This document shows positions 975 through 63,669 of a DNA stretch of 64,000 nt, in pieces. The notes below the pieces were generated by a model that was not told the origin of the DNA, searched no databases, and saw only the letters and a list, made by a program, of their open reading frames with translations. The DNA is from Micractinium sp. NFX-FRZ (lineage: Eukaryota; Chlorophyta; Trebouxiophyceae; Chlorellales; Chlorellaceae): contig JAPTJF010000251.1 in the NCBI GenBank assembly GCA_029339195.1, positions 25,207 through 89,206 on the forward strand, given 5' to 3'. Each line of letters begins with the position of its first letter. Within the stretch, counting starts at the first letter, position 1. The position numbers and the translations under genes were made by a program.

Positions 975-3900
975 TCAGCGGGCGGGCCGCATACGCTCCC
1001 GCACGTACGCCTGATCCCGTGCCGGGATGTGGCGCAGGTTCTGCACCCCCTCGGTCGACGCCTCTCGCCAGTGCGCAGGCTGCAGACAGGCGAGGTGATA
1101 CCAGCTGAAGCCGCCGCCGCCGCCGCTGCGCCGCCCGCCGAGCGGCCGCATGCCGATGCGCGTAACGTTCTCGCCAATGCCCGCCGTGCATGCAGTGCAG
1201 CGTGCCGTGCTCGATTCAGCCGACAACTCTACCCTGAACTCGTTGCGAGTGGGCGCAGCGGGCGCAGGCGCACGGTGCGGCACGGCGGCGCCCCGCCGTC
1301 GGCTGCCGCCACCACCAGCGGCCCAATGCGGCTCAGGCTGCAAGCCCAGAGGATCCGCAAGCAGCCCGCCGCCAAAGCCTCCAAAACCGCCCAGCGGCCC
1401 AGCACCCAGGATTGTGGCAGCCAGCGCGGCCATCATGTCGGCGCCCCGCCCGCCCCCGCTGCGCCCTGCAGGTGGCACGGCGCAGGCAAGATTGGTTAGT
1501 GGCACACAGGGAGCCAAGTCCTTTGGGATCCGCAGCAGCATTTGAGGCAGGGCAACACACAGCACGCGGCAGGGCTACGCTGGCTGGCCTGAACACAGGC
1601 TTTAAAGGCAGGCACGCCCGGCACGGCAAGCGTGCAGCCATCGCGCTGCAACCTTACCGCCGCTGCCGCCCGCCCGGTCGCGCCCGCCGCCGCCACCGCG
1701 CTCCCAGGGTGATGCCAGCTCCTTCTCCAGCCGCTCCCGCTTGGCCTCCCAAGACGCCACCTTCTCTTGTCGAGACTCCTTGTCCTCAGCTGACAGCTGT
1801 GGTCACAGGAAGGGGGCGGAGCGTACGCGTGGTTATGAGGCGGACAGAACAGGGGGGAACAGTCTGAGGGGGCCAGGACTCCCACCGACTGTGCCTGCGT
1901 TTTACCGACCCCCTGCCCAGCCTCATCTCCCTTCCCCCTGCTGCCTGCTTCACTCCCTCCCTGCCAGCGTTGCCAAGCTGCCCAAGCCTCCCACCTCCAC
2001 CGGGCAGCCACTCACCGATAGGGCGACCATTGAGATGATGTTGTCAATCTGGTGGGCCCGCACCGGCGCTCCCGCAGCCTTCACCCTGCGGAGCGAGACG
2101 ACAGGCAGCATGCCATGGCATTGAGGCGCCACATCAACAGGCACAGCAGTGTGTAGTGGTGGCGGAACATGCGTGCATGCAGGCAGGCAGGCAGAGTGCA
2201 CCACCTTACCATGCTCCTGTCCAGCTGCTGCCTGGCATCACCTCCCAGGCTCTTTGCAAGCGCTCTGCGTGGAACCGCCCAGCGACCCTAACCCAGCCAA
2301 ACCGTGCCCTGTGGCTCGCCTGCAGGTGGGGCACTCCCGCTTGCCCTTGCCCAGCCACCCCGCCAGGCACTCCCCACAGAAGGAGTGGTTGCAGGGGTAC
2401 ATGGAGTGGGTGGCCACCAGCATCTCCTGCAGGGGGTGGGGCAGGTGGGTGGTATGGAAAGACAAGGAGGAGTGGGAAAAGGCAGTGGGAGAGCAGCAGG
2501 ATAGGAGGAGGCGCAGGGCGGGAGCTGGGGCAAGCTGTTGGAGTGGGTGGCCACCAGCATCTCCTGCAGGGGGTGGGGCAGGTGGGTGGGGGTCACGGAC
2601 AACAAGAGTGGGAAAGGGCAGTTTGGAGGCCAGCAGGGTGGTGAGCGGGTGCAAAGGTGCACGGACAGGTAAACGCGGATGCAGTGGGAGCGTAGTGACG
2701 GCAGGAGAGGGGAGGCAGCGGCAGCGGGAAAGGCAGAATGCAGGGCCAGCGGGAGGTGGGGATGTGCGGGGACGACAGGCTGGGGCTGTGCCCTGAAGAA
2801 TGCTGCCCTGGCATGTCCCTGGAGCATAGAAGCTACTGACGCAAGGGCGGGAACGGGGAGTGCGGCAGCCGGGTGCGAAGAAGTGCAGCAGGCAGGCGAG
2901 GGCAGGGAGCAAGATGGTCATCAAGAGGGAGGGCTTGCCTGGCAGATGGCGCACATCAGCTCCTGGTGCATGCTTGAGAGGTCGGTGCCTGGCGCTGCTG
3001 CCGCTGCCGCCGTAGCTGCCGCCGGCTCAGCCCCTGCCGCTGCTGCCGCTGCCGCAGCGCCTGCCGATGCCGCCGGGCCCGGTGCCGCGGCCGCATGGCT
3101 GGTGCCAGCAGTGCAGCGGTGCTGCAGGCGTGCCTCAGGGCTTGGTCTGGCGCGCTTGGACTCCTGTTCAACCTGCAGGGGGCGTGGACACGAGCAGCAG
3201 CACTGTCGTTCGTGGTTGACCAGCAATCAGGTAAGTGGGAGCTCGCAGGGAGCATTGGCAGGGGTGGCGGGGAGCATGGCCTCAAACAGCAGTACATGAA
3301 TTGCGCACTGTCGAGAGCAGAAAACAGTGCAGAGATTGACTGCTCGGTGGTGGCGCACCCCGGCGCCCACCCCGACGCCCGCCCAGCCTACCTCCTGAGC
3401 CGAGCCGTGCCGCCGCTTGCTGGGGGAGCTCGCGAGATCCACAAACTCTGCCGCTGCTGCTGCTGCTGCGCCACCACCCGCTGCCGCCCCACCCGCCGCC
3501 GCTGCAACCTGCGCCCACGACGGCCCTGCGCCAGCCGTGCCGCCGGTACCACCCCAGCCAGGGCGCCGCTGGTGCCCAGCAGCCTGGGGAGAGGGGGAGG
3601 GTGAGTCTGCCGTGAGGTCCACAAGGTCTGGCTCTGCTGCCGGGCGCGGCGGCGGCACCTGCAGCGCCGGTGGCCTGCGCTGTGCAGTGGATGCCGGGGC
3701 TGCTGCTGCTGCCGGAGGGGCTGCCTGCGCTGCACGGTGGCCCATCCCAAAGAACGGCTGCGTAGCACCCTGCACTGGCAGCGTGCCTGGCGGCAGCAGC
3801 TGAGTGGCACCCTGCACCGGCATCGCCCCGGGCGGCAGCTGCTGCGTCGCGCCGTGCATCGGCAGCATGCCTCGCGGCAGCGGCGCTGGCTGCACTGTCG

Positions 3901-5754
3901 CGGGCGTGGGACCACCGGCCCCGCCAGCAGCTGCATCCTCTGCGGGGGCGCTGCCCTGACCAGAGCAGGGCTGCTGTGAGGCCAGGTAGGCTTCATACGC
4001 CTCGATCGCCGCCAGGTCAAGTGCTGCACTTTCATCGCTGTCATCAGCCTGCTCTGCCGCCGTGACAGCAGCGCCTGCCTCTGCTGCCACGCCCGCCGCC
4101 CCTGCCTCTGCTGCCGGCGCAAGCGGCCCCGGCTGCTGCTGCACTGGCATGCTGCCCGGCTGCATTGAGCCACCAGGGCCAGGCTCTGGAGACACCACTG
4201 CCTCCTCGCTGCCCGCCCCTGCCTGCAGGGCTGCCTCTTCAGGCGACCGCGGCGATGCCACCTCCGCGGCCGCCTGCTGCTCAGCCTGCTGCACGCCATG
4301 CTGGCCACGCTGCACGGCGGGCGGCCCCGGGCTGAAGCGGTACACCTCTCGGGCTGGCGCCGCTGGTGCTGCTGCCTGGGGTCCGCCAGGCCCAGCAGCT
4401 TCCATCGAAGGTGACGCCGGGGGCCCCTGCCCCGGTGGCACATAGCTGGCCAGGAATTGGTGCAGCTGGCGCACGCGCCACACCCAGGGGTTGGGGCGCG
4501 GATGGCCTCGCAGCGCAATGGTGCTGGGCCTGCAGCAGTCACCAGAGCTTGGAGGCTGGGTCAGGATGAAGCAGGTACAGGGCAGGCCACAAGCAGCAGC
4601 AGCGGCAGCTGAGCTCGAGAATACCGGGATGGAAGGCGCAGAGACCACAACCAGGCGCATAGGCAGGCGGGAAGGTTGGCGGGCCAGCAGGCGGGAAGCT
4701 AGGCAGCAGGCAGGCTGGCTGGCCCGCTCACCCGCCAAAGGACACGACATCATCTTCTTGCAGCACCCTGCAGGAGCAATGGCACGGTTCAGGCGGGCGC
4801 CCGGTGGGTGCAGGCGGGTGGGAGAGGCAGGGCCGAGAGCCACGCAGGCATCCGCCGCTGGGCATGGGTGCACTGGCGTGCCTTCCACCCAACCCCAAGC
4901 ACGGCCTCGTGCCCTGCCCACACGCAGCCAATTGAAGAAATCACCCCGCCGCGTGCTGCTGGCCTCCATGCGCTGATGACTTGCACGAGCGCTGTTCAAA
5001 GCGCCCCACCATCTGCCCAGCCCGCAAACCCCACACCTTCAACAGCACAACACAACACAGTCGCATTCTTAAGATTCAACAACACAAACACAGCACCGTC
5101 GCTGTCAACCACCGGCTGCTGTTGTGCCACATGCGTTGCCGTTTGGATGAAGTTCACGGGCGCCACCACACCCTCCATCCATCCCAACCAACCACACCCA
5201 ACCACCCTTATAAACCTGCATTAAACCAAAGCAACCAATCAACCCACCGCGTGCTACTGGGCTCCATGCGCTGGTCGTTCACATAGGTGCCATTGACGGC
5301 GCCCAGGTCCACCAGCTGGATGTGGCCATCCACCACTTCCAACCGTGCATGCTGGCGGGACACCTGCAGGTTTGTACAGCTTTGGTGACAACGTCAGACT
5401 GGGGGTGAGAGCCAGGAGGCACAGCGCGCTGGCGGCTGGGCATGCTGAGCTTGCTTTCCTTCCACAGCTCGGCCCAACCAGGCCCCACCCGCCCAGCACC
5501 CACAACTTGCACCCAGCCTGGAAACAGCTATAACACAGCACAGCAGTTCGCAGGGCTGCGTTTCTTGTACCAGTGTCAGCACCCACCATGTTGACGAGCT
5601 TCTCCGGCAGCGGCTGCGCCGACGCGCAGTCCATGCGTATCGCGCTCAGCAGGTTCTGCTCCACGCGTCCCACCGTCACAACACCCCGTCCCGCCACAAA
5701 GGCCTGGTCAAGGGCCACGCTGGTGGCGGGGCTGGGGTTGACTGCTGACAGCAT
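975..5754 (-). CDS. FHA-SIM-RING-PARP-type zinc finger protein, probable E3 ubiquitin ligase
   Basis: Ten exons read in phase on the minus strand: 5754-5587, 5363-~5248, ~4978-~4930, ~4773-4735, ~4532-~3396, ~3177-2939, 2426-2320, 2095-~2014, ~1798-~1665 and 1465-975. The N-terminus is an FHA phosphopeptide-binding domain (VGRVEQN, VSRQHARLE, LGAVNGTYVND, LQEDDVVSFGG). A long Ala/Pro/Gln linker holds three 14-residue repeats around LPPGAMPVQGATQ and two SUMO-interaction-like motifs (DLVDLTADS, FVDLASS). A C3HC4 RING follows, split by an intron: CAIC, then PCNHSFCGEC, then CPTC. Next come RAHQIDNIISMV and a charged helix. The C-terminus is a zinc finger with spacing C-x2-C-x30-H-x2-C (CTAC to WYHLAC), as in PARP fingers. 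FHA plus RING recalls CHFR/Dma checkpoint ligases, and the finger suggests recruitment to DNA breaks. Domains are seen; function is inferred. The exon 2/3 junction is ambiguous because its edge is duplicated. Confidence 0.85.
2404..2589 (-). repeat. 49-bp direct repeat duplicating the RING exon acceptor
   Basis: Positions 2404-2452 and 2541-2589 are identical. On the minus strand each holds a polypyrimidine stretch, the CTGCAG acceptor and the first codons of the RING exon (EMLVATHS). Only the copy at 2404-2452 continues into the zinc ligands PCNHSFC. The other sits upstream in the intron and would run into unrelated sequence. Confidence 0.9.
4949..5273 (-). repeat. 27-bp exon-edge duplication flanking an FHA intron
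   Basis: Positions 4949-4975 and 5247-5273 differ at two of 27 bases. On the minus strand one copy ends FHA exon 2 (coding QRMEPSST) and the other precedes FHA exon 3 (QRMEASST). The intron between is bounded by near-identical sequence, so the splice could fall at several equivalent points. Confidence 0.8.
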
Positions 5755-9208: not shown

Positions 9209-9521
9209 GGGCACGGCGGGGGCGCGGGCCCGTGCTGGCCTGCTTTTCTCTCTCATTTGCAACTGCAACAAAGCATACACTCTTGTGATATCGCAAAGCC
9301 AGATATAGCATCTCAGGCGGCGGGAGAGCAGGGGCCAAGTTGGCCGCCACATCAGCAGCTACAGGCGGTGGAAAGCGCGGCGCGGCCTGGGGATACATAG
9401 GGAGCGCGTTCCGGCCAACTGACATTCATTCCCCAACCTTCGGTTGCCCACAAACCCCGTCAGGCCCCCCAGCCAACTCCCCTTTGCGCACTTCCAACTA
9501 CTCCAGCAGCATCCAGACACA

Positions 9522-12639: not shown

Positions 12640-15600
12640 TCACCCGCGGTCCTTCTCACGCTGCCGCTGCTGCTGCTGCTGCCACCACAGCGGCGGCACA
12701 TCGCCGCCGCCTGCCTGACGCCTCTGCTGCTCCTCCTGCTGCTGCTGCGACAGCCGGCCGGGGGCCTGCTGCCGCACGCGCTCCCGCTCCCGCATGCGCA
12801 GGCGCTCCTCAAAGTCTGCCGCCTCCACATCTCGGGGCTGCTCGTCCAGCGCGCGGTCGCTGCGGTACACCACGTCCCTGCAAGGCGGTACAGGCGGGGT
12901 GGAAGGGCGGAACAAGTGATTGATTTGGAAGCGTCAGACCTCAAAGTCCCGGCCAGGGCTGCTGCTGCTGCCACAGAGGAGGGAAGCCAGCTTCCCTACC
13001 AACCCCAGCCCCATATGACTGCCCCCCCACCCCCACCCCCTCCTCCTTCTCCTCCTACCTTTCGGTGATCACGCGCTGCTGCGCCTGCTGTGCCGCCCCC
13101 GCCAGCTTGGAGCGCAGCGTGGCATCGGGCTGCGCCAGCAGGCCCAGCGCCTCCTGGCGGGCCTCGTTGCGCGCATCTATGGCCGCGTTGCGGGCCGTGT
13201 TTTGCAGGGAGCGGAAGGCGGGGATGGCAAAGAAGGAGGCAGCGTACACCTGCAGCCAGGATGAGGCAGGACAGAGTCTCATTAACAAGCTGGGTGCTGC
13301 GGGGCAGCCAGGTTCAGGCAGGACAGAATGTCGACAAGTGGGTGCTGCAGGGCAAAATGCTGAGGAAATGGCGGTCGGAACGGGCAGCAGGGCACGCAGC
13401 AAAGTGGCCAGCGACACACGGCTGTGCAGCCGCCCCACCGTCCGTGCTGAACGTGCTTTACTGCCCCCAAGGCCTGAACCTTCCAGGCCGACAGCCAGGC
13501 TGCACCCCCCCGCCCCTGCTCCTGCTATCCTGGAGCCCTTACCCAACCCTCCCAATTCCACCACACCTCTCAGGCCACCCTTCCCCTGGGCCGACAACAC
13601 ACCACCCCAGCCACCCTCCCCCTGGGCCGACAACACACCACCCCGGCCACCCTCCGCCCCCACACACACCGCACCTGCAGGTATGGCATGGCGCCCACCA
13701 CCCACAGCAGGCCATTCCGTGCCAGCGCCACCTTGTTGAGCGGGTCTGCCAGCATGGCGGTGAGGGCCACCACGCCCACCAGGTTGAGGGCTCCCAGCGC
13801 CACCGCCGCCAGCTTCTGCCCGGCAGAGGCAGCCGTCAGCTGCCACTTCTGCTCAAGGGCCGCCGAGCGCGGCGGCGCGGCGCGCCCACGGGCGGCCTGC
13901 GGGGGAGCAGCGGGGCGGCGCGGGTGGCGTGGGGGAGAGGGGGTGAGCTGCCGAGGTTGGCGGCGTGCGCTTGCTCCTAGCACCCAGCCCCACCCGCCCT
14001 CACTGCGGCGGTTGCTATTTGAATCAGGCTCAGGGCGGTCCGGAGCCCGCACACATGCATGCCCCTCCCCCCCCACCCCCCCACACACCAGTGCCGCGGC
14101 CCACATGCCACACAATCAACCCGCCACGATTCACTTGTGCGCTCACCGTGGCGGTCTGCTGCAGCTCCGGGAAGGAGTACACAATGTTGCCGCTGGCGTC
14201 CACGGCGGGGCTGCCGTTGAAGCGGGCTAGCACGGGGAGCATGTACGACTCGTCCACTGAACGCAGACGAGGTGTGGGGGGAGGTGGGGAGGGGCAGGGA
14301 GAGGGATGACGAGCTGGGGCCAGGCAGGCCCGGAGGAGGGCGAGCTGGGGGATGCGGAGGGCGCCTGCCTGCAGCTCCCACCCAACCTCCTCCCCAACCC
14401 ATCCTTGCCTCCTCCCCAACCCATCCTCACTGTCCAACCCAAAGCAGTGAACCCAATGCTTGCAGTAGGGTGATTCACTGCCCTGCCCCGTTCCACACTT
14501 ACAAATGGGTGACTCACTCACCCCATCCCCCCTGCCTCACCCGCGATGCGCTGCCCCCGGTCCGCCGCCAGCTGCCCCGGCTTCAGGTCCAGGAAGGGGG
14601 CCAGCTCCTCGGCCACCACCGTACCGCCACGCGCCTGGATGTACCGCCCAACCTGCGGGACAGGGTGGCCAGGTGCAGGGCAGGGCGAGCAGCGGCTTGA
14701 GAGGCGGTGCACAGGGGCGGGGGATGGGTGCCACCCTGTGGCGACTGGCAGGACAGTCGGGACTGCACCCCCAGCCAGGGCTCACGACAGCCTTACCACC
14801 ACTGCAGGAGGGCATCACCACAAACTCTTGGCCCGCCCGCTGCTGGCCCCCTGCCCTCCCTCCCCGCTGCCTGCAGGGGGCGGGGCTGTGCGCTCACCGC
14901 CTGCCAGCGCTGGCGGTCGTACTCGGCATTCGGGTCGCCGTCGCCAAACACCCAGCTGCAGAGGGGTGGGCAGGTAGGAAGTACGCAATGCAGTTGGATG
15001 CCCGTCTCCCGGAAGCACCCAGCCAAGTATCGGCAGGGGGCAGGGTCGGCAGGGGGGGGACCCAGGACGGCCGTGGGCGGGCAGGCCGGCAGGTGCCTCT
15101 CCTCCACTCTGGTCCCCAAGGACTCATGCCCGCGCTTCCACGGACCCGAGCAGAGTTGACCAGAGTGCCTCCAAAACAGTGTGCTGCCCGGAACCCACGC
15201 CCGAGGATGCCCTTTCTTCTTGCAACAAAACACTCCTCTCCCACTGAAGGAGAGAAGCATGTGTCCACCACAAGGGGGCCTTGTCTTCTTACAGCTCATG
15301 CACCCCACCCACCCCCACCCCGCCACGCGCACACACACACACACACACACACAGCAGCCCACCTGAAGATGGCCTCCAGGAAGTTCATGCCCCCCTGACC
15401 CCCCTGCTGCGCCATGCGCTCGCGGCGGTGGCGGTAGTAGAAGGGGTCCCAGTACCACAGCACGTCCGTGAGGTCAAAGAAGAAGCGGGGGCCGCCGCCG
15501 CCGTAGCCGCCGCCGCGCCGGTTGTTATTGTTGTCGTCTTTGCCGCTGCTGTGAGGTGCGGGAGGGTGGGCGTGAGGGTGAGAGGGTGTCAAGGGGGCGG

Positions 15601-43095: not shown

Positions 43096-43100
43096 TTACA
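43096..43100 (-). promoter_or_regulatory. TGTAA polyadenylation signal
   Basis: TGTAA on the minus strand lies 42 nt past the DNAAF5 stop codon. Confidence 0.55.
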
Positions 43101-43142
43101 CAGGTCAGGTCAGTGGTGAACAGTAATGCAGACGCTGTCTGG

Positions 43143-48613: not shown

Positions 48614-51600
48614 ATGGCGAGCCAGGCGCAGGATATCTTTGACAACCCCGCCAGCCGCATCCGCTATGAGGCCTACTCGCGCCTGCAAGCGGCGGCGGTG
48701 GCATTTGGCGAAAACCTGCCTATCCCAGAGATTGTGGCGATTGGGGGGCAGTCGGACGGCAAGTCCAGCCTGCTGGAGGCCTTCCTGGGGGTGAGCGGGT
48801 GGCTGCCAGGGCGTGTGCTGGGTGCTTGGTGAAGGGTCCCAGGACAACTGCAGCTAGGCAGCGCAGAAGCAGGCAGTCTCTCAGCAAAGAATAGCTAGCA
48901 TCGGTCCCTGAATGTTCGCGCCCCTGCTGCGGTGCCCCCTGCCCTTCCTCCCACTGCCGCCCGCTGCCCTGCACCCACCAACACCCCCCTGCTCCTGCCC
49001 CTGGCAGTTCCGCTTCAACATCACATCGGTGGAGATGGGGACCCGGCGGCCGCTGATTGTGCAGGTGAGCACTTGAAGCAGCACTAGCGCCTGTGGCGCA
49101 TGAAGAGCACCCAGCCATTGTGGGGCCCCCTGTCCTCCTTCTGCTCCCAGCCCCCAGATCCAGACGTGGGTCCTGCCCTGGGGTGACGTAGCCACCTCGC
49201 CTGCCGTTGAGTCGGATCCTTCGGCACCCATGCCCCTTTCCCCACCCAACTTGCTGATCCCACCATCCTGCAAGTGCAGATGGTGCACGACCCCGCAGCC
49301 CTGGAGCCGCGGTGCCGCCTGCAGGTGCGGGGTCGGTCTGTGAGCAGCGTGCCGCAGAAAATGCAGGAGGGTTTGCTTCACGTGGCCGCCGCTGCAGCAA
49401 GCTGTGCAACGTTGCGCCGCTCCCCAGGAAAGCAGCCTGCGGGCCTGTTGACATCACCAACCGTCCTCGCTATGCTTGCGCATTGCCACCCATGCACCCA
49501 CACACACACCGCAGGACGAGGACAGCGATGAGTACGGCCCTGTCATCCCGGAGGAGGCGCTGGCGGAGGCCATCCGCGACCGCACCGAGACGCACCTGCG
49601 CAAGCTGGGCGCCACCGTCAGCGGCAAGGTGCGGTGGCAGTCATTGCAGATGCTGGAGGAATGGGGGTTTAGAGGAAGGTGGAGGTAGACCCTGGGCTGA
49701 CTGTGGCACCTGGGGATGAGCACTCAGCACCCACAAGCCGCTGTCCTCAGCTCTCCCGTCTGGCTGCCCACCCTCAGCACCTGCACGCACCCTGCGCCCT
49801 GCAGCCCATCGTGATGCGCGCGGAGTTTGCCTATGCGCCCAACCTCACAATCGTGGACACGCCCGGATTTATTCTTAAGGTGCGGTTGCTGCAGTCAAGG
49901 TGGAGTGGCTGCCTGGGTGTGCGGGCTTCTGACAAGTAGATGGCGACCGCACACCATTCCGAGGCTGCTTTGCTCAGCCCAAGGCGGGCACGGCCGGGGT
50001 GCCTGCTGCGCTGCACCCAACTGCCCCTTGTTCGTGTTGCCGCCCAGGCGCGTGCTCTGCCCTGCACCTGCCTGCCCACTAGACTGTCGCTCCCGCCCCC
50101 CTCACTTTGCGTGCTCATCACCCGCAGGCGCGCAAGGGCGAGGCCGACGGCACCCCCGACGACATCCTGGCGATGGTCAAGGCGCAGTGCGCGCCGCCGC
50201 ACCGCCTCATCCTCTTCCTGCAGCAGTCCTCCGTCGAGTGGTGCAGCTCCCTGTGGATGCACATCATCCAGGAGGTGGACCCACACTTCCAGCGCACCGG
50301 TGGGTGGGTGCGGGCGGGTGCTGGGCGGGTGCTGAACGGGCGGGTGCTGGGAGGGGCGGATGGGGAAGTGCAGCTGGGGTGGGCCTTGACTGGGTGCTGC
50401 GCAGGGCAGATGGGGTGGGTGCTGGGTGGGGTTTAATGTGTGCATGTGGTGGATCGCTTTGCTGCCTGCGCCGTGCTGTATTGCTCGGCATCGCAGTACG
50501 ACAACCTTGCGTGCATACAATGAACCTTGTGTGCATATAATGTGTGTCCCCTGCCTGCTTCGCTGCAGTCATGGTTTGCTCCAAGTTTGACAACCGCCTC
50601 AAGGTGCGCTTTGTGCATGTAATGTCACCTCCTCTGCCCTCCATGTCCGGCCCGCTCTGCACTTTCTTGCTCTTATGCCCTGTGCTGCACTGCACTGCCC
50701 CTTCCCTTTTTGCCTTGCTGTACACCGTATGCCTCTGACCGGGCCGCACCTCTCAACTGAGCGCTGCTGTTGGTGCTGCAGGAGTTCAGCGAGCGCTGGG
50801 AGGTGGACAAGTATCTGTCGGCCAGGTGGGGCAGCAGCGCCGGCTGCTGACAGTGGCTTGACACGCAGCCATGCAGCCAACTCTCATTGTTGCCACCGTA
50901 CTGCGACAGTGTGACACATCTCTTGGATGCTGTCCCCCAAGAATCCCTCTCGTCCCCTTTCCTCGGCCCTCTGCCTGCTGCAGCGGCTACCTGCCCCCCT
51001 CCGTCAAGCCCTTCTTTGTGGCGCTGCCCAAGGACCGCGCCGGCGGCGGCGGCGGCATCGCCACCAGCGCCCCCAGCTCAGAGTGGCGCAGGGCCATCCA
51101 GGAGGTGGACGGCTCCATCAAGCAGCACCTGCGCACGGGCATCGAGGGCGGCTTCGATGAGGAGCGCTTTGGCACACGCATCGGCTTTGGCAACCTGCGC
51201 AGGTGGGCGGGGCGGCTGGTGTGAGGCAGCTGCAGCTGCAACGACGGGACAGGCGGGCGCTGGGGGGCGGGCCCCACACTTGCACTGCTCTGGTCTTACC
51301 CCTGTCATCCACACTGGTTCGCCAACATCAGAGTGTACAAACCAAACTGACACCTGTCTCCCCACCTGCCCTGCCACCGCTCTGGCCCCTGGCAGGTTCC
51401 TGGAGGAGGAGCTGGCTCGGCGGTACCGCGACGCCGCGCCCGCCACCCTGGCGCTGCTGCAGGAGCGGTGCGAGTCGGTGGCACGCGAGCTGATTGGCGC
51501 CGACAAGAAGCTGGCAGAGGCGGGGGACGTGGTGTCCCTGCGCCGCTCTGGTGAGCCAGCCAGGTGGTGTTACAAGTGTGCCACGGCCGAGGGACCCTGG

Positions 51601-54600
51601 GCAGTGAGGAGATGGAACGTGGTGTAGCAAGCAAGAGTATGCACAATCCAGGGAGAAGCGACATGCTGCATGCAATAGGGGCATGCTTTGCCAGCTTCCA
51701 CAATGCCAGTAAGCTGCCTGCTTACCACGCCTCTTTCTGCCTCCCTCCCTTTGTTGCCCCATGCAGCCATCCAGTATGTGCTGTCCATCGCCACCCGGGT
51801 GGAGGCCATCCTTGCCGGCTCCCCACTCATCGACCCCATGCAGTACGGCTGGACCACCGAGGAGGAGCGGTCGGCTGCCACCGGCGGCAACGTGAGTTGG
51901 ACCAGCAGGCTGGGCTTGTGCCAGCGGGGGAGCATCAGCTGCAAGAAGCCGTGCAAGGCCACTCGGCCGGCGCCAGTCTGCTTCAGCGCGTACGGTTTCC
52001 ATGCTCCTCCCAGGCACTCTTGCCTCCTCGTGTCCCACCCTCGCCCCCGTGCCTCCCCCGCAGTGGCCCGGCGTGGCGGCGGCGGTGAAGCCTGCCAACG
52101 CGGGGCTGCGCCTGTTTGGCGGCGCCGCCTTTGAGCGTGTGCTGCAGGAGTTCCAGGAGGCGGCAAGCTGCCTGGAGTTCCCCGCCGTGCAGCGCGACCG
52201 TGTGGCCAACATTCTGCTGGCCTACAAGAGCAGGTGCGGGGGCGTGGGAAGGAGGGAAAGAAGGGGGCAGGCTGTGGTGCATTGAAGGCTGACAGGGGGT
52301 TGAGGTGAACAGAACATGCGTGGTGTGCGAGTCGAGCTGCCATCTGCTGTCGACAGCCCCTTTGGTTGCCATGCCTGTGCTGGGACAGCATGGCTGCTGC
52401 CATACTGATGCCTTCCTGGCTCTGGCCCACCTGTTTTTCTCTTGTCAGGAACGGCGGCGGCGTGAGCAAGGCTGCCGAGGAGCTGGCACGGGGTGCTGCT
52501 CGGGAGGCGCTGGAGCCCATGCTGGACGCTGCTTGCACCCGGCTGGGTGCGGTGGTGAAGCGGGCCTATGACATCGCGGCGGAGCAGGCGCAGCTGCAGC
52601 GTGGGGCGGGTGCGTGGGCGCTAGGCTGCCAGGGAAGGCGGTACCGCTGCGACTGTGGAGGGAGAGGCAGAAGTGCTGCAGGCAGGATCGGGGGCGCACT
52701 GTTGCAGTGCAGCAAAGGTGGCGTGAATGGTGCTGGGTGTATATGAGGCTCCCAGATCTCCCTGGCCTCCACCTTGCTCAGCCATCACTGCCCCGCACCT
52801 TGCATCCCTGCCTCCCCGCCTGCAGGCTACGAGCGCCTGCGCCCGTACGTGGCTTTCCACGCTGCCCTGCGCTCCGCCTTCCAGGCATTTGTGGCGGGGC
52901 TGGAGGAGCGGTGCAAGGGCATCGTGCGGCACCACCTGGAGACGGCCACCAGCGAGTATGCCATTGGCCTGCTGGCAGGTGAGCCCCCCAGGGGCAGGTG
53001 TGGGGCAGAGGCTGGGATGCGGAGCTGGGAGCGAGCAGCGGAGGGGGGGCATGGCCACCAGCGTCCGTATGGATGCTGTCGCTGTTGCAGTACTAACCGA
53101 GCTGCTGCCTTTTTCCTGCGCCTGATCAGAACTGCCTCTTCTCACCCATTGGCTGCCACTGCCCGTTCATCCCTCTGCAGACAACGGCGCTGCGGATGAC
53201 GTCCCCTCGGTGTATGAGAGCGAGGCGGGTGACGAGAACGAGCATGCGGCGGGCGGCATGGGCCGCCAGCCATTCGCGGAGACGCAGCAGGTAGGTTGAC
53301 TGCCCCTTGGTTGCTCCCCTGTAGCAACAAGAGGAAGTACAGGTTTCTAAGCATTAGTGGCTCTGCCTGGATTGGCACGCATGCAGTTCTCTGCTCCCCA
53401 CTCCCCGTATTCTCAACGCGTCCTGCTCCATCCCGCCCTGCTCCTTCTCTACCTGTGCAGACGGTGCCCGAGACCCCCAGCCCCGATGTGATGACCGTCA
53501 ACAAGCCGGACCACCTGCGGCGGGCAGCGCTGGCGGCCGCGGCAGCTGCGGGGCGCAACGTGGACGAGGACTCCCCCGGCAAGGGGCGGGTGGCCAAGGT
53601 GGCGCGCACTGCGGCGGGGGCCATGGGCGCACCCAGCGCCAGCTCTGCATACCTCAGCGTCTGCCACCAGGTGCTGGGGGGTGGGGGCGGTGCAGATGCA
53701 AGTTTTGTGTGGTCAGCAACTTGGCCGGTCCGTGGTATTGGCAGTGGGCATGTAGCGGGTGGCTTGCTTGCTGCTCATGACCGAGGCAGAGGCTGACCTT
53801 GCAGCGTTTCTGGCACGCTCGATGCCCAGCTTCACGCTGGCTGTGCCGCACCAACGTGCGACTGCCACGCCCCCATGCAGGCTTCCCGCCTGTTTGGGCG
53901 CATCCGCCAGACGGTGGCCTGCCAGGCGGCGCCCGCCACCCTCAAGTCGGCCTTCCTGGAGCCGGTCAGCGTGCAGCTGGCCTCGGAGCTGAGCGTGGAG
54001 ATGTTTGGGCGCACGGACGAGGACTTCATGGGGCTGTTCACGGGTGGGTGGGTGGGTGGGGGAGGGTGCGTGCAGTGGACGTGGGGTTGGCGTGGCTTGG
54101 TCGACTGACAGGTGTGCGGAGTAGCAGGTGCAAGGCAGAGGGCACCCTAGCACACACGCTGTAGGTGGGTGGGTGAGTTGGGTTGACTGGCAGGTGGATG
54201 TGGGGTTGGGTGGAGGTAGGTGCTCAGCAGAACAGGAGGCCAGGCAGCTGAAGCATCAGTGCACCTGGCGGCCAGCTGGCTCCTGCCACATCAGCGCCTC
54301 AGTGTGGAGTAGGCGGGCCGTCCGTCCGTGCTGCTCAGCTGCATGCTCCCTGCCCCTCCTCTGTGTGCCGCAGCGGCGGGCGTGATGTCGGCGCTGGAGG
54401 CCAGCCGCGACGGGCTGGCCAAGCGGGTGGAGGGCCTCGTGCGCTGCAAGAACGAGGTGAGTGCCTGGAGTGGCTATGCTGAAAGCGATGCCCTGGCAGG
54501 CCAGCATGACCAGTCACTGGTGCATGTGCCAGCAGACGATGGCTGGATGTCGTGTCTGCGTGCTTGCAAATGCCCCGTACTCCTTGTGCCCTGTACTGCA

Positions 54601-54628
54601 GTTCCAAGAGCTGGCGCGCTGCCTGTAA
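48614..54628 (+). CDS. DRP5A: Dynamin-related protein 5A-type GTPase
   Basis: About nineteen exons run from the ATG at 48614 (first exon 48614-48790) to the TAA at 54626-54628. The GTPase domain has the P-loop GGQSDGKSS, the switch region MGTRRPLIVQMVHDP, DTPGF and SKFDNRLKEF. The order continues as in the plant DRP5A family: YLSASGYLPPSVKPFFVALP; GFDEERFGTRIGFGNLR; FLEEELARRYRDAAPATLAL; WPGVAAAVKPANAGLRLFGG; AFERVLQEFQEAASCLEFP; VANILLAYKSR; RHHLETATSEYAIG. A linker with TVPETPSPDVMTVNKPDH leads to a C-terminal helical part ending FQELARCL. The family-typical TVPETPSPD motif and the ending separate it from ARC5/DRP5B and classical dynamins. In Arabidopsis DRP5A marks the cell plate and acts in cytokinesis; a division role here is inferred. 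The last coding exon is only 27 nt (54602-54628), and the TGTAA-like string overlaps the stop. Confidence 0.93.
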
Positions 54629-55250: not shown

Positions 55251-58200
55251 ATGGTGGCGGGTGCGCCGCCCGGCTCGCCACAGGGGCCGCCGCCACCGGC
55301 CGGGCCTGCGGGCCAGCTCAACCCGTCGGAGCTCAGCTTCAACACGCTGTGCAAGCTGATGGACACGCTGCGTGCCACCAGGAACCACAATTTGAAAAAG
55401 AAACGGCTGGATCGCTTCATGGAGATCAACATCAGGAAGGAGAGCAGGGACGCCTTCTCCGTCTTCCGCCTGCTGCTGCCGGGGGTGAGCTGGGGCGGGC
55501 GCCGGGTGGTGAGAGCGGGGATGGAGGAAGAAGAGAGCGTGGTGTGCCATGAAACTGGCACACCCGGTTGATGTCTTAGAGGTGTGGACTGAGCGGGCTG
55601 GCCGGCTGGGTGTAGGCTGGCAGAGTGCCAAGCCTGCGGTGGTGGGACTAGGTTATGCTGGGTGCTGCCCGGGCCCCTCCCCGGCTTGCTGCACTCACCT
55701 CATTGCTCAATGCACTGCCGTCCCTGCGGCAGCTGGACATCACGCGGGGCATGCACCACCTTGCTGGAGAGCAAGCCAGGCACAAAGGCTGCAGGCAATC
55801 ATCCACTGCTGCTGACGTCAAGGAACAGTTCACCGCTCTCCCCCCTGCCACAGCTGGACAACACGCGGGGGAACTACCACCTGCTGGAGAGCAAGCTGGC
55901 CACGGTGCTCATCAAGGCAGCCAGCATCGACAAAAAGTCAAAGGAGGCGGAGGCGGTCAAGGACTGGCGCAAGCCTGGGGCCAGCCGCAACGCGGGCAAC
56001 TTTGCAGAGGTGCTGAAGCAGGTAAGGAGGGTGCGCGCCGGCTGGCTTGGGGCGCGTGTGTGTGTGCAGGGGGGCAGGAGCGATGTCAATGTGTGAGGGT
56101 GAGGGCGGTGGCGGCAGGAGTGGGCTCTGTGCACTGGAGTGGAGGTAATGCCCCCCGTGCTGCTGGCAGTGTTGTGCACGTGCTGTTGAGAGGGCAGGGT
56201 CGACATGCAGGGCCGCCGCTATTGCATGGGAGCAGCAGATTTGTAGTCACTGAGTGGTGTGGGGCAGGACGATGGCATGAATACTGCCCACAACTGCTGA
56301 AGCATGTGAGAGGGCGGGTGGGAGGGCGTGCGAGGCGATCCGTTTTTTCCGACTTCCACCCTGCTGTAACCTTCCGTCATCTGTTTTCATGCCCCCCGCA
56401 GCACATCTTTGACCAGTGCTGCTACCTCGACCCAGACAAGGAGGAGGCGCGCCGACTCAAGGTGCGGTGCGTGTGTGGCAGCAGCTGGGCGTGCCGTGTG
56501 GCGGGCCCTTGCAGGCGTTCCTGTCGCCCTGAAGCAGGGAGCAAGGCGTAGGATAGGAGTGGACAGGGGTCCGAGGTGTGGAGAGGTTGGCACAACATTG
56601 CGCCCCACCCCAGCATGCAGCCGGCCCGTGCACCTGAACCATGGAAACATCCCTGCTGGCCGGGTGATGTAGCTGAGCGCTGAGAGGCCCACGCACCCTG
56701 CCTCCCCCTCCCACTTATCTGAGCAGGTGGGTCAGCTGAACGAGGAGCTGGACAGGCTGGTGGCGGCGGCGGGCAACGCGGAGGAGCAGGCGGGGATCTT
56801 CCGCAGGCTCATGGCGGTGAGGCGGGGGGGAGGGGGGCGGGGGAGGGCCTGGGGGGCAGACTGGGAGCAGGGCTCGCTGATGTGGCAGGCATGGAATAGG
56901 GCGTAGCACCAAGGAGGCGCAGGCGGCCATGTTTGGCTGGCTCCTGGCGGTGAGGGTTTGCTTTTTGCGTGTTTGGGGGGTGGCCGTCGAGAGTGAGAGA
57001 CAGAGCACGGCTGTGTGCATGGGACGGGCTACTGGCGGCAAGGCTGGGCGGCGATTGTTGGAGGGAGGAGGCCACCTGCGCAGGCTACCTGAGCAGGCTG
57101 CGCCCTGAGATGTGAGGAGCCCGACCCGACTGCACGGCCGCTCGCTTCTGCCCGCCCGTGCCCGCGCCACACACGCCTCGCGCCGGTGCTGCTCTGCCCA
57201 CATGTGCGACACACGCCTGGGGCGCCCGCCTGCCCGCGTGTATTGCAGACCACCACGCCGGATCAGATGGCCTGGATTGTGCAGATCATACTGAAGAACC
57301 TCAAGGTACGTCGTGAGGCGCACGGGGTGGGCGTGCTTCAGGGAGGGAGGGTGGCCAAGGGGGGGATGCCGCTGCTCGCTCCTGTGCGCTGCCCTGCCCC
57401 GCCACGCCATTCCCTCCCCGTCCCGTCCCCGTGCCCACATTGAGCTTCTTGAGGGATTGGAACGTGTGGCACCCTTCCCCCACTCTGATCCTGCCCCCCA
57501 ACTTGGCCCCCCCTGCCCACCTTGATGGAGTGCGCTGAGGGCACGTCCTCAAAAGACATGTAGCACCCGCCGCCCCACACCGCGCCGACGGCTGCCCCGC
57601 CTCTCCCGCTTCCTCTGGCACGACTGCCTCGCAGATCAACTGCGCCGAGGGCACCTTCCTGAAGCTCTGGCACCCAGACGCGGAGGAGTACTACAACAAC
57701 AGCGGCATGGTGAGCTCCAAGAGCAGTTGGCACGCTGAAGCTGATTGATGGGTGGAGCAGGCACAGAGGGTGGCGGCGGGGAGGTTGGCTGGGATGCTGT
57801 GGAGGTGCACCAGCAGCGGGACGGTCAGGGTCGGCTAGGGTTCTAGTGAGGGCGCAGGTTCACGTGCTGGCGTTGTCGGTAGGTGGGGCGAGGCAGGGTG
57901 CAGCGGTGCAGGAGGGAAGATAGGCTGCGTGCCAATATTGCAGAGCTGACGGCGAGATGAGGAGGTGGGGCATGTGCGGGAGCATGGGCGGGTGAAGGTG
58001 CGTGTGGGTTGTTGTATGAGTGGAGGGGCGTCATCTGCTGCTGCTCGCGGCTGTGGAGAGCCGCTCGCTGCTGCAGATAACAGCAGTTATAGCTGCGCTA
58101 TAACATATGGTTGTTTTCTGGGTGTCAGTGGAATGGGATCTTACAGGGTGTGTGACACGGGAGAGCAACGCGGGAAAGCGGACATGTATCTAGCGCACAA

Positions 58201-61200
58201 TTCCGCGTTCCCGCTTCACTCCCGCTGTGTCACACACCCTGTCAGTCCCTCCTCATTCCACTGACACCCAGTACCAGCAGTACTCCCACCAGCAGAGCGA
58301 GTTTGCAGCTCCCGATGGTTTAGCTGCCAGCTACCGCTGTGGACCCTCTTTTCTCGCGCCCCACACGTTTCGCTGCATAGGGAGCGGGCAGGGGAGGGAC
58401 TCCGCCGCATGCCGCCCAGCTCGGTGCAGCTCTGCTGCTCTCTGGCCCGGTCAAACCAGTGCTTTCCACCCACCCCCCCTCCTGGCAGGACCTGCGCTTC
58501 ATATTCAACGACATGATCAACCCCAACAAGCACTTCAATGCGGTGGGCTGGCGCCAGCGGGGCAGGGGTGGGCTGGGGCGCGCTGCCGCACTCTGCTGTA
58601 GCATTCTGCTCGCCGTGCTGCATGCTGCTGTAGCATTCTGACCTAGCACCTGCCGCCGGGCATGCAGATCATTGGCGGGGGTGTGCACGCCGCCCACCTG
58701 TATAGCGCGCTTGCTGTGTGCGTTGCGTACGGCACTTGTTGCAAGTTGAACACTGGCGCGTGTCTTTCCCCTTTCTCCTCTACACTGCCCTGCCCCGCCC
58801 AGCCCCACACCCGCCGTCTTGCCCGCCCCACACCTGGCCCCTGCGCCAGTCGCCTGCTCCCCCGCAGAGGCTGCAGCCGAGCAAGTCTATGCGCCCCCAG
58901 ATGGCGCGGGCCATCCATATATACTATGGGACGGTATACTATGCAGTAACGCACCCTCCCCCTCGCCCCCCTCCGCCCGCTGCCCCCCTCTGTGCCCGCA
59001 GGCCCTGCAGCCGGGCAAATCGGTGCGCCCCCAGATGGCGCGCGCCACCAACAACGTGCACTGGGCGGCAGAGTACATGGCGCGGAAGCACGGCGGGCGC
59101 TTCCTGGTGGAAAGCAAGTTCGATGGTGGGTGGGTGCTGGGGGGAAGGAGCACTGGTGTGCGCGCGCGTGGGTGTGTGTGTTTGTGTGAAGGGCGTAGGG
59201 TGCTTCGGGCTGCAGTATGCATGGCAACAATAACACGGTGGCCGCTTCCTCGTGGACAGCAAGCTCGCCGGTGGGTGGGTGCTGGCAGGATTCTCTATGT
59301 GTTGTGTGTGTGTGTGTGTGTGTGGAGGGCATAGTGTGGTTGGGGCGGCACAACACTCCGTGCGGCAGCATGAAGGGCGGTTTTTGGTGGAGAGCAGTAT
59401 GTGGCTCGCAGGAGACGTGGTTACTCACCCGCCTTGCATTCCGGCGTGCCCGTGCCAACCACCCCGCATCTCTCCGCGCTGCCCGCCCTGCCCGCCCACT
59501 GTGCGCAAGCAGGCGAGCGCATGCAGGTGCACCGCTACCGGCTGCCGGCGGCGGAGGCTGGGGAGGGGGAGCAGCCTGAGCAGGACACCATTGGCTACTT
59601 CTCGCGCATGGCAATCGAGCACGGCGAGCGCTCCAGCTACAGGCAAGCTCTATCTAGCGGAGGGGGGCGTGGGACGGAGGCCCGGGAAGGAGGGGGAGGG
59701 AGGGAGGAGGGCAGTCGGGGAAGGAGAGGGAGAGGGAGGGAGGCGGGGGGCGTGGGCGCGGGCCTTCATCCATGCAAGGCGTTCAAGCACAGGGGCAGGT
59801 CCTGCTACAGGCACGCCCCGTGCGCTCTTTTGAAACCTGGCGGGCGCTGGCTAAAGCTGGGATGGCAGCCACTACCATTGGCCACTACCATGTACACAGT
59901 TCCAGGTTGGTGCTGTGTGATGGCTGATTCCATCCGGCACGCCACCCGGCTGCCCTCTTCAACCCTTCTGCACCGCTCATGCGACGCCCATGCAACGCGT
60001 GGCATCTTTCCAGTGGCTGATGTCAACATGGGCGCTTGGCCCTCTGCAGCGTGATGGATGACGTCATCCGGCAGGCCACTCGCGGCACCTGCATCCTGGA
60101 TGGAGAGCTGATTGTATGGCACAAGAAGAAGTGAGGGGGGCGTGGGGCTGGGCTGGGGGCGGGGGAATGACAGGGAGAGTGTCCAGCCTGCAGAGACAGC
60201 CCGCAGGGTGGCATGTGCCCACATGCTTTTTGCCGGCACCCTTCCGGCCTGGCTACCCTCCCCGGCCTGCCTCGACTCACCCGCGTTCCTCTCCACCCTG
60301 TGCAACCGCCCACCCTGCAGGGGCGTGTTTGCCACCTTTGGCTCGCTCAAGCCGCTCATCGGCGCCATCAAGGAAAAGAAGAAGGCAGATGACATGGTGG
60401 AGGTGCGCACCTGGTTCATTTACTTCTTATTGCTACGTTTGACTAGCTGTGGGTGTGGGTGTGTCCACAGACGGGTGGAGCGCCAAGCGCTTAAGAACGC
60501 CGTCAAAGTGGGGGGGTGGGTGCGCATGCAGATGAGTGGCCTCCCCGTGTAAAGCTGCCCCAACCCTTCATTCCCTGCCGGTTTGGCCCGCGTGTTTCAC
60601 ATCAGCCCCTGCCCCCTCCCCCTGCCCCTGCCTGCAGTTCAACAGCATCGACGAGGAGAAGGCGGCGGTGAAGGACGAGGATTACGAGGACATGCTTGTG
60701 GGGGTGAGGCGCACTGCCGCAAGCAAACATGAGCTTGGAAGGAAGTAGGTTGAAGGACTATGCAGGGGCATGCTTGCTGGGAGTGGTGAGTGGGGCACAA
60801 GAGCTGGTTGTCAGAGAAGCAGAAAGGCGAGGAGTGGTGAAGGATGGAGGCGTGGTGTGACGTGGTGTGGCGGGTGCGCTGAGCGGTGCTGGGGTTGAGC
60901 ATCGCAATGATTGAAGTAAACCCTGTGTTGTACTGCCTGGTACTGCGCAGGACTGCGAGCTGGTGTACGTTGTGTTTGACATTGTGCACAACGGGGACAG
61001 CGCGCTCAACATGGAGCCGCTCAGCACGCGGCTGCGGGTGCTGGAGGAGTTTGTCACGCCCGTGGGGCCAGGTGGGTCTGCCTCTGGTCTACCTCTATTA
61101 CCGACAGAACTGACAGACAGGCGAGCAGCCTATGCGGGGTCAGAGGGTGTTCAAAGGGGGCGAACGCGGCTTCCGTGCGGCGGCGTGGGGCGGCAGTTAG

Positions 61201-63669
61201 GGGAGCAGCAGGCCGAGGACTGCTCGGCGGCAGTCAGGCCGGTGGGGTGGCCTGGGGGCGAGGGGCTCCCTGGGATGAGCAGGCACGCTTTTGTGCAGGG
61301 GCTGGAGGGGTGGGGGTATGGTGGGTGGGTGGATTGCCGCCAAGCGGGCGGCAGGAAGCTGTATTCACCTCCACTTTACATCCCCCCACCCCTCACGCGG
61401 CTGCCCTCCCTCCCACCGCTGCCCCTCCTCCAACCCGCCCTCCCCCGCAGTGCCCCTGGCCGACAGCTGCGTGTGCGGGCGTGTGGAGGTGCTGCTGCCG
61501 GGCAAGACCCGGTTTGCGGGGCGTCTGTGCTCGCGGGAGGCGTCCACCGCCCAGGAGATCCAGGATGCCATGGAAGAGGTGGATGGGCGGGCGCCTTACT
61601 GGCGTGGTTTGTTTGGCAGTAGGGCGGGAGGGGGCAAGTGACGGTGCGGGGCGGCTGGGGGGAGCGTGTGCATGCAAGAGGTGTGGTTTGCGTAGCAGCA
61701 GCAGAGTGCTATGCAGGATTGGGATGGGGTTGCGGGTGTGTGCGGTGGGGTGAGGAGGGCAGCATGGTCCTAGCCGTGGGCAGCCACTGGCAGTGCTGCA
61801 ATGGAATGGAATGGTGAATGCAATGGAAATTATGGATATGCTTGACATCAAAGTTTCATTTGCCACCTGTCGTCCTCAGGCTCACAGCCTGCACGAGGAG
61901 GGCATCATGGTGAAGGCGCTGGACAGCCACTGGAGCCCCAACGACAGATCAGACCGCTGGCTCAAGTGAGCGCTGCAGCCGGTGGGGGCGGTGGGAGAGG
62001 CGGGGTCCTGGGCCGCCTGCCCCGCCATATCGTTTCCTGTCCCTTCCTTCCTTCCCTCCTGTTACACCGTGCACGTTTCAGCAGAGATGACGGTGCTGTC
62101 GTGCACAAGCCTGACTCTCTGCCCTGCTTGGTGTCACGCGCCAGCTGTGGCCGTGAACCCACAGATGATGCCCTCTTCCCCCACCCCCCTCTGGCCCCCC
62201 AGGCTCCAGCCGGACTACCTGGCCAAGCACTTTTGCCTGTGTGTGCCTCATCTCATCCAACACATGTCAAGATGTGCGACCCCCCCCCACCTCCCTTACT
62301 ACTTACTTATCTTACTCCAGGCTGAAGCCCGACTACCTTGCCAAGATGGAGCTTGATGCGGCCATCATAGGAGCCTGGTGAGCGCTTGCCTTTGTTGCAA
62401 TTGTTTTTGTGTGTTCTTGTGGGCAGCGTGTGTGTGTGTGTGGTTGAGCTGGTTGCGTCCACCCCGCTGCCGGCAGTTGCCCAGAAAACACGTGCTGGAT
62501 TGAACCCACACGTGCGCCTCTGTTCTGCGCAGTATCACTACCTCCCGGCCTGCGTGGCAAACTCAAGCGCATCCCCCCACCCCCCCTTCATTTCGCACAC
62601 TCCTCCGTCCAGGGGCGGCAAGGGCGGGCGGGGCAACCTGTACACTCAGTACCTGCTGGCGCTGGCGGACAACATCCACACCGGACCCTCTGGCGTCATC
62701 AACAAATGGGTCTCCTTCTGCCGGGTGAGCTGGGGGCGGTGGTGCGGGGGAGCGTCGGGGGATGGGGGAGGGGGCTTTGGGCACGCTGGGCCGTTGCGGC
62801 GGCTCTACTGGTGCGGCCAGCAAGCGGGCTGCACAGCAAATGGCCCTTGGAGGAGGGGGAGCATGAGCAGAGTCCAAGCATGGTACTTTACTATAACAGC
62901 AGGTTGTGATGCTTGCTGCTGCCGTGTGCAGGTGGGCAGCGGGCTGGACAACGAGGAGCGGCAGGAGCTGCACGACCGCATCGCGCCGCTCTGCGTGGAG
63001 GCATCGCCACGCCACCCGCCGCCAGAGTGCTACACGTGAGTGTTTGGGCCGGCCACGTGGAACCCAGGCAGGATTTTTGGGTGGGGGGCGGGGGGGTGGG
63101 GGGGTCTCTGTTGCTTGTCGCCTGGGCTTGGGGTGGATCAACAGCTCGCCATTATGCATCCCACTTTTCAGAAGTTTTGCTCCCATTCACCGTCTCTCTC
63201 CTCCTCGTCCTCCCCTCCCCTGCGGTGCGCAGCATCACCGGGCGGGAGAAGCCGGACGTGTGGATCACAGACCCCAACCGCAGCATGGTGCTCCAGGTGG
63301 GCTGCTCTGCACAGGGCTTTTTCCGGCAGCCTGCGTGATGGGTGCGGTGCGTGCTGGAAGGAGAGCCATGCCCGTGTTTGTTGAACCGGAACGGCGGGCC
63401 TGCCCTGCATGTCACTGTTTCAGCTGCCCCCTTGCTGATGTGGTGGCGTCGGTCACTCAATCCGTTGGGCACCCACTCAAACTCAGTGGCATTGGATGTG
63501 CGTGCCCGCCTGTGCGCCAGCCGGCAGCGCCAGCCATCGGCCTGCACCCCACCATCTGTCGGCCTGTACTGCTCTGTGCCTGCAGGTGCAGGCCGACCTG
63601 CGCGCCATCCGCACCACCGTCTTTGCCACGGGCGTCTCCGTGCGCTTCCCACGCATCCAGAAAGTCAGG
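55251..63669 (+). CDS. LIG4: DNA ligase IV, 3' end cut off by the window
   Basis: About twenty exons are visible, the first 55251-55482 and the last 63585-63669. LIG4 seals double-strand breaks in non-homologous end joining with XRCC4. The N-terminal DNA-binding domain starts LSFNTLCKLMDTLRATRNHN and includes LDNTRGNYHLLESKLATVLI. The nucleotidyltransferase core has motif I SKFDGERMQVHRY with the adenylated Lys (its exon junction falls inside the Gly), CILDGELIVWHKK, LVYVVFDIVHNGD, LHEEGIMVKALDS (motif IV) and DRWLKLKPDYL (motif V). The oligonucleotide-binding fold follows: GGKGGRGNLYTQYLLAL, SGLDNEERQELHDRI, KPDVWITDP, VSVRFPRIQKVR. The tandem BRCT domains that bind XRCC4 are not seen and would lie past the right edge. 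A GC donor at 59643 is needed for SSYSVMDDVIR. Many introns carry exon-edge copies. Confidence 0.93.
55733..55898 (+). repeat. Copy of a LIG4 acceptor edge
   Basis: The true exon start at 55854 codes LDNTRGNYHLLESKLA. At 55733-55777 a copy would read LDITRGMHHLAGEQA, preceded by the same GGCAG/CACAG-type acceptor. About 35 of 45 bases agree. Confidence 0.88.
57523..57680 (+). repeat. Diverged copy of a LIG4 acceptor edge
   Basis: The true exon at 57635 starts ATCAACTGCGCCGAGGGCAC. Near 57525 a related string ATGGAGTGCGCTGAGGGCAC occurs, followed by further similarity ending in GCACCC. Confidence 0.65.
58118..58271. repeat. Long imperfect foldback in a LIG4 intron
   Basis: The left arm begins CTGGGTGTCAGTGGAATG and the right arm ends CATTCCACTGACACCCAG, an exact complement over 18 bp. 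Inside, CAGGGTGTGTGACAC pairs with GTGTCACACACCCTG and CGCGGGAA-type strings pair near the loop. The arms are about 60 bp each, with a loop around CATGTATCTAGC. An 8-bp hairpin (GTTATAGC/GCTATAAC) lies just upstream at 58086-58104. It resembles a miniature foldback element or a small-RNA precursor. Confidence 0.88.
58861..59060 (+). repeat. Copy of a LIG4 acceptor edge
   Basis: CCCGCAG and then GCTGCAGCCGAGCAAGTCTA at 58861-58916 mirror the true exon start at 59002 (ALQPGKSVRPQMARAT). Both share GCGCCCCCAGATGGCGCG. The copy is followed by ATATATACTATGGG and does not continue the frame. Confidence 0.88.
59080..59400 (+). repeat. Two copies of the LIG4 motif I donor edge
   Basis: The true exon end codes GGRFLVESKFDG up to 59125. 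Copies at about 59235-59275 (GGTGGCCGCTTCCTCGTGGA) and 59365-59400 (GGGCGGTTTTTGGTGGAGAG) lie in the next intron, each more diverged. The first keeps the GGTGGGTGGGTGCTGG donor context. Confidence 0.85.
59766..59955 (+). repeat. Copies of both flanking exon edges in one LIG4 intron
   Basis: At 59776-59815 a string ending CCTGCTACAGGCACG echoes the upstream exon end CCAGCTACAGGCAAG. At 59919-59953 GTGATGGCTGATTCCATCCG echoes the downstream exon start GTGATGGATGACGTCATCCG. One intron thus carries echoes of both its borders. Confidence 0.8.
62200..62356 (+). repeat. Copy of a LIG4 acceptor edge (motif V exon)
   Basis: CCCAGGCTCCAGCCGGACTA near 62198 copies CCAGGCTGAAGCCCGACTAC at the true exon start 62321 (LKPDYLAKMELD). 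Similarity runs through CTACCTGGCCAAG in both. Confidence 0.88.

Follow-up and report, generated by a model that had tools for sequence, protein, structure and literature searches.

Copies of exon edges inside introns of a Micractinium genome are probably the remains of short tandem duplications

Why should introns of a green alga contain extra copies of the ends of the exons that flank them, splice sites included? The question was raised by an earlier note on the last 64 kb of the 89,206-bp contig C251 of Micractinium sp. NFX-FRZ (genome 66.07 Mb, 838 contigs), a stretch that we call the window. That note described such copies, here called echoes, in six named genes. We sampled 329 kb of the 66-Mb genome, comprising a first set of 249 kb and 80 kb held out (contigs C60 and C120); GC content is 60-68% in the window and the stretches sampled. 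Genes were modeled with a small gene finder trained on 249 kb of the same genome, and the models are predictions without an RNA basis. Splice signals in the training set are strong (donors AG/GTGNG, acceptors TGCAG). In the window, Pfam matches of the predicted proteins comprise FHA plus RING, the ribonucleotide reductase small chain (RNR2), UvdE (UVDE) and, for LIG4, the N-terminal, middle and C-terminal domains of ATP-dependent DNA ligases. The Pfam search was run with shortened FHA-RING and UvdE proteins, and the gene finder broke the LIG4 gene into two models. The same search gave no match for the helical protein (37675-42737) or the At5g03900-like protein (12640-17207).

Five of the six named genes have echoes at predicted junctions: FHA-RING (two), RNR2 (three), the helical-protein gene at 37675-42737 (three), UVDE (two clear and two weak) and LIG4 (four clear and three weak). 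The At5g03900-like gene (12640-17207), which had been listed as a weak case, is not confirmed, the repeats found there being just intron-interior ones (13252/13304 and 13559/13595) and one 17-bp match. With the final filter, 15 of the 19 repeat pairs in the window lie at exon edges. The pair that the earlier note had named (2404/2541) is present on the minus strand in FHA-RING: 2402-2452, containing the true acceptor and the start of exon 2320-2426, is identical at 51 of 51 positions to 2539-2589, an echo in the upstream intron at a spacing of 137 bp. In the predicted protein, the copy at 2402-2452 is the one that runs on into the RING domain; the gene finder's 9-bp exon at 2555-2563 is taken as an error. 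The other echo in this gene (4939-4975, minus strand) repeats the donor edge of exon 5248-5363 (true copy 5237-5273) at a spacing of 298 bp and with 89% identity.

RNR2, also on the minus strand, shows arrays on both sides of one exon. On the donor side of exon 18954-19054, a unit of about 79 bp occurs three times (18739-18972), the last copy extending 19 bp into the exon, and on the acceptor side a 58-bp unit occurs three times (19028-19212), each copy with the acceptor and 27 bp of the exon. The third echo (21946-21995, minus strand) repeats the donor edge of exon 22071-22172 (true copy 22070-22119; spacing 124 bp, 86%). The join at this last exon is backed by a protein of Micractinium sp. 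CCAP 211/92, to which the predicted RNR2 protein is 92% identical (276 of 300 aligned positions) in an alignment that runs through the join. A predicted 941-bp intron of the same gene holds an 89-bp repeat (20081-20347; 97% identity, spacing 179 bp) that is found nowhere else in the genome. There are three RNR2 small-subunit paralogues (window 18483-22172, L021 4215-8251 and L022 2103-5975); most predicted intron positions are common to those on contigs C98 and C36, and the window RNR2 has several positions of its own.

The remaining three genes lie on the plus strand. In UVDE, an array of units of about 45 bp (25976-26344), each with an acceptor-like CTGCAG and the start of exon 26351-26407, has that exon as its final copy. 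Upstream of the acceptor, the array (25976-26364) has no stops in the exon frame for 120 codons, so stops alone cannot exclude partial use of the upstream acceptors. The same exon has a weak short echo of its donor edge (26470-26490; true copy 26392-26412, spacing 78 bp). The acceptor edge of exon 28003-28083 (true copy 27992-28026) is repeated at 27923-27957 with a spacing of 69 bp, and that of exon 29351-29445 (true copy 29356-29391) weakly at 29289-29324 (spacing 67 bp, 30.1 bits). The helical-protein gene has echoes of the acceptor edges of exons 39274-39379 (39165-39231; true copy 39245-39311, spacing 80 bp, 88%) and 41582-41841 (41417-41521; true copy 41546-41642, spacing 129 bp, 71%), and of the donor edge of exon 40854-41004 (41242-41274; true copy 40974-41007, spacing 268 bp, 88%).

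Two of the clear LIG4 echoes flank a single exon, 59002-59125: one repeats its acceptor edge (58861-58913; true copy 58995-59047, spacing 134 bp, 85%) and the other its donor edge, with most of the unit aligned (59234-59350; true copy 59089-59214, spacing 145 bp). The other two repeat the acceptor edge of exon 55854-56021 (55722-55776; true copy 55843-55896, spacing 121 bp, 85%) and the donor edge of exon 56727-56816 (56913-56955; true copy 56780-56822, spacing 133 bp, 81%). The weak ones lie at or near acceptor edges, those of exons 60050-60130 (59911-59948; true copy 60045-60082, 33.7 bits), 61880-61965 (61752-61790, near the edge; true copy 61895-61933, 35.6 bits) and 62321-62377 (62199-62227; true copy 62317-62345, 35.6 bits). 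A low-complexity candidate donor-edge echo was also seen at 54043-54213 in the gene at 48614-54628 (spacing 121 bp, 35.6 bits). At the contig end (63756-64000), a 59-bp unit occurs three times and is followed by 72 C.

Echoes are found beyond the window too, on all ten contigs sampled. Across the gene models of the 329 kb, 57 of 554 introns repeat one of their own exon edges, donor or acceptor included, which bears out the abundance reported from the window, and 65 of 554 carry any such local repeat, whether at the edge or not. The first 249 kb yielded 46 direct pairs (at least 36 bits, 3-mer diversity at least 0.5) spaced 15-300 bp apart and none spaced 300-1500 bp apart; inverted repeats, taken as a control, amounted to 2 pairs, neither of them spaced below 300 bp, and a shuffled decoy, run for one third of the spacings, gave none. 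Direct local repeats thus far exceed both controls, and chance is excluded. In the printed alignments, many repeats run across an exon edge and contain its donor or acceptor. With the final filter, and at spacings of up to 320 bp in the 329 kb, there were 69 exon-edge, 17 intron-interior and 4 exon-exon pairs and 15 outside predicted genes, these being counts of pairs in which arrays figure more than once. The four exon-exon pairs have spacings of 84, 99, 78 and 138 bp, all multiples of 3.

The held-out contigs C60 and C120 gave 22 of 41 pairs at exon edges with the windowed final filter. With the first filter they gave 28 pairs (14 edge, 6 intron-intron, 3 exon-exon and 5 outside genes), 19 of them with spacings of 70-150 bp. 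That first complexity filter, which scored the number of different 3-mers in the full alignment, was biased against long young repeats, and the analyses that had relied mainly on it were partly redone with the windowed one; pairs below 36 bits or of low complexity and spacings above 320 bp were left out. In a diagonal scan to 300 bp, unit sizes range from 13 bp up, reaching at least 150 bp in 13 of 136 repeat clusters. The blastn size table is unreliable below about 60 bp: known 45-bp arrays went unreported at that spacing, and we therefore think that the apparent scarcity of spacings under 60 bp is an artefact of the program. Among the youngest repeats seen is a 103-bp unit present three times, at 98-99% identity, in an intron of C120 (L029-L032, joined coordinates 29768-30082).

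Are exon edges special? The earlier note had held that the echoes are not generic intron repeat content, and the comparison of edges with other intron positions goes against it. We matched 35-mers to their own introns, using introns of at least 120 bp from the 249 kb and, for intron interiors, one 35-mer per intron of at least 230 bp. A score of at least 30 was reached by 16 of 344 donor edges (4.7%), 21 of 350 acceptor edges (6.0%) and 9 of 212 intron interiors (4.2%), and by none of the exon-interior 35-mers (0 of 214 and 0 of 223); at p<=0.02 the rate was 12.7% for intron interiors against 8.1% and 10.9% for exon edges. Intron interiors thus match their own introns about as frequently (4.2%) as exon edges do (4.7-6.0%), a likeness that the earlier note itself had named as refuting a special role for the edge. 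With exon interiors clean, this is the pattern expected from short duplications that are tolerated anywhere in an intron. Two further parts of the original description stand: the units do straddle splice junctions, intron bases being present in 41 of 43 echo alignments, and the copies are of different ages.

We consider it probable that the echoes were left by short tandem duplications, head to tail, each of which overlapped one splice junction, and the earlier suggestion of short tandem duplication as their source fits the geometry of the repeats. In 22 repeats the alignment covers at least 85% of the unit. Nine of them are multi-copy arrays or array harmonics; the other 13 have two copies, and in 7 of these the copies abut within 4 bp (5 at exon edges and 2 within introns). 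Echo introns have a median length of 359 bp, against 229 bp for introns without a repeat (p=2e-10), and once the spacing is subtracted their median is 242 bp (p=0.48 versus the rest), so the added length equals the unit spacing. For the analyses of echo halves and splice dinucleotides we used echoes with a spacing of at most 150 bp, one exonic copy only and 15 or more exon bases, which left 40, of which 38 had an intron half of at least 30 bp. The intron half is clearly homologous in 14 of these 38; the other 24 are above chance on average and singly weak or undetectable. Repeats of like spacing also occur away from junctions, namely the pairs counted above that lie within introns, outside predicted genes and from exon to exon (17, 15 and 4).

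The RNR2 paralogues on C98 and C36 allow introns at the same position to be compared. At four shared positions with a repeat in one paralogue, the repeat-bearing intron is the longer in all four, by 299, 150, 117 and 312 bp for spacings of 88, 92, 110 and 105 bp, the excess being near the spacing in only two. A fifth echo intron, with unclear boundaries, differs little in length (262 versus 233 bp). Where neither paralogue has a detected repeat, three shared introns are 233/234, 186/232 and 264/364 bp long, the last pair differing by 100 bp anyway.

The probable course of events is as follows. A unit of about 13 to 150 bp, in a few cases longer, that overlaps one splice junction would be duplicated head to tail; one copy would retain the working exon edge, and the other, lying wholly within the intron, would add the length of the unit, be dispensable and decay, its exon-derived half staying recognisable longest. 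Units confined to an exon would presumably be purged, and those that include one junction would survive with the outer site still in use. With a median length of 229 bp when free of repeats, introns offer little room for units of about 100 bp, and many tolerated duplications must therefore touch a junction. What we observe for the echoes is their position, spacing, added length and recurrence and the neutral decay of their splice sites (below); as to their origin, our best guess is that they arose by end joining of staggered breaks or of nearby nicks on opposite strands. Both of these sources of tandem duplication are described in one paper (PMC5730883, citing Schiml 2016 and Vaughn & Bennetzen 2014). 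The tandem duplication itself is common to that system and the alga, but the work there is experimental, in mouse cells and with overhangs of 46 nt.

Several measurements do not agree with a neutral model in which the ends of units fall uniformly. The exon share of the unit has a median of 29 bp, against 49 bp in simulations (KS p=4e-7), so uniform placement does not hold. As a fraction of the unit spacing, the exon share is above 0.5 in only 3 of 52 unique edge loci, against a simulated median of about 0.45-0.5. The alignments, too, fall short of the simulated ones, at 55 versus 92 bp for old loci and 67 versus 104 bp for young ones. In a comparison of 64 unique loci with spacings of 60-150 bp, old loci divide 44:8 between edge and interior, against 1.35:1 simulated (binomial p=6e-5); the young class, of just 12 loci, divides 8:4 against 1.46:1. 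In 7 of the 38 echoes, at least 90% of the exon half is kept and the intron half is not clearly recognisable. Exon share and age classes together imply that exon-rich echoes are missing and that the patch near the junction outlives the rest. Rescuing the neutral model takes two extra assumptions: a bias, selective or mutational, against exon-rich units and a faster turnover of intron sequence. As possible causes we favour selection against exon-rich copies that would confuse splicing, together with a presumed faster turnover of intron-derived sequence. In the 14 clear cases, gap openings per column are higher in the intron-derived part (0.097 versus 0.016, a difference inflated in part by over-fitting of the alignments); simple-sequence content is alike in exons and introns and gives no cause for faster turnover.

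These misfits count in favour of a process centred on the junction. Splice junctions would then be hot spots, and a patch of about 30 bp of exon and 20 bp of intron would be inserted as a copy some 100 bp inside the intron, or repeatedly renewed through gene conversion or template switching. The short exon share, the short alignments, the excess of edges among old loci (44:8), the presence of the junction in 41 of 43 alignments and the well-kept exon halves beside unclear intron halves (7 of 38) all suit it. However, echo splice dinucleotides decay at the neutral rate, the young loci (8:4, though only 12 in number) are near the geometric expectation, whole-unit tandem copies exist, and repeats of like spacing lie far from junctions. 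We regard this explanation as unlikely; if it is true, copying tied to junctions by repair or template switching lengthens introns genome-wide beside ordinary tandem duplication. Its strictest form, with patch copying as the sole mechanism, was rejected in view of the junction in 41 of 43 alignments and of the whole-unit copies.

A very improbable alternative is that echoes are retained as decoy or alternative splice sites. The splice dinucleotide is indeed intact in 25 of the 40 echoes, but this equals the neutral expectation. Donor echoes keep it in 13 of 18 cases (expected 0.68) and acceptor echoes in 12 of 22 (expected 0.61), the expectations being taken from neighbouring bases; echo sites thus persist at the neutral rate and are not kept above it. 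The spacing modulo 3 shows no significant skew either (30, 20 and 19 pairs with remainders 1, 2 and 0; p=0.20, windowed filter); a skew seen with the first filter (24/13/10) faded with the better one. Nor are codon positions 1 and 2 spared: by codon position of the exon, echoes mismatch at rates of 0.112, 0.122 and 0.175 for positions 1, 2 and 3 (43 pairs; p=0.02 for unevenness). The changes at positions 1 and 2 mean that the protein does not constrain the echo; silent substitution in the exon itself could account for the surplus at position 3.

The birth of introns, which the earlier note had suggested, is hardly credible as the source of the echoes. In the Rogers model, a tandem duplication of exonic AGGT yields an intron as long as the unit, the first copy spanning the donor and the second the acceptor, and there are published precedents (PMC4974935, PMC2891723). 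No case was found here: in 448 introns the donor-to-acceptor signature, in which the two ends of an intron resemble each other when aligned at their junctions, stays near background. A count over 524 introns gave 3 matches, which are read as same-junction echoes that were miscalled as exons of 3 or 9 bp. Moreover, the copies contain existing intron sequence, so the junction predates the duplication.

Assembly duplication is equally hard to credit. Some copies are identical over a stretch (2402/2539), and the poly-C contig end is odd; with its 59-bp units, that end is possibly an assembly artefact, and a 241-bp query across it (63700-63940) matched the genome only at its own place. Edge echoes, however, mostly differ by 8-25% in the exon part, keep register with splice sites, come in different unit sizes and are present on each of the ten contigs sampled. 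Insertion of introners, whose hosts include algae, or of transposons could also supply extra splice sites, and splice-site motifs are present in the echoes, but this has next to no probability, given that what is copied in each gene is an exon edge of that same gene and that four of four intron stretches from the window matched only their own place in the 66-Mb genome (in a search that skips simple repeats and very common words).

Most likely, then, a known type of mutation has overlapped harmlessly with splice sites many times in one genome. If about one in ten introns shows a duplicated junction of its own, small tandem duplications are an important route of intron growth in this alga, and its spliceosome must routinely choose the right site among two or more that are nearly identical. 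Splice-site choice and intron lengthening could both be tested within this one genome, which offers graded natural examples such as the UVDE array. Human introns, too, have reportedly arisen from tandem arrays and been linked to alternative splicing (Zhuo et al. 2007); what those arrays have in common with the ones in UVDE and RNR2 is that tandem arrays contain splice sites.

Single cases of duplication across an exon-intron border are known; the contribution here is how many occur in one genome. A search of the literature, covering titles and the openings of abstracts and few subscription papers, found no such description for a Chlorella-like alga, a weak negative. In the RdRp gene of potato (Ma, Lan & Niu 2016, PMC4974935), one tandem genomic duplication spans an exon-intron border, and another, of 83 bp, lies within an intron. 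As in the alga, an existing intron-exon structure was copied and splice signals were inherited, but in potato there was one event, which gave a new intron, whereas here 57 of 554 introns are involved and the copy merely lies within the old intron. Intron gain in Drosophila (Lehmann et al. 2010, PMC2891723) likewise has local tandem duplications near splice sites reshaping gene structure; there, however, an exonic duplication with a proto-splice site leads to a new intron, and in the alga that signature is near background.
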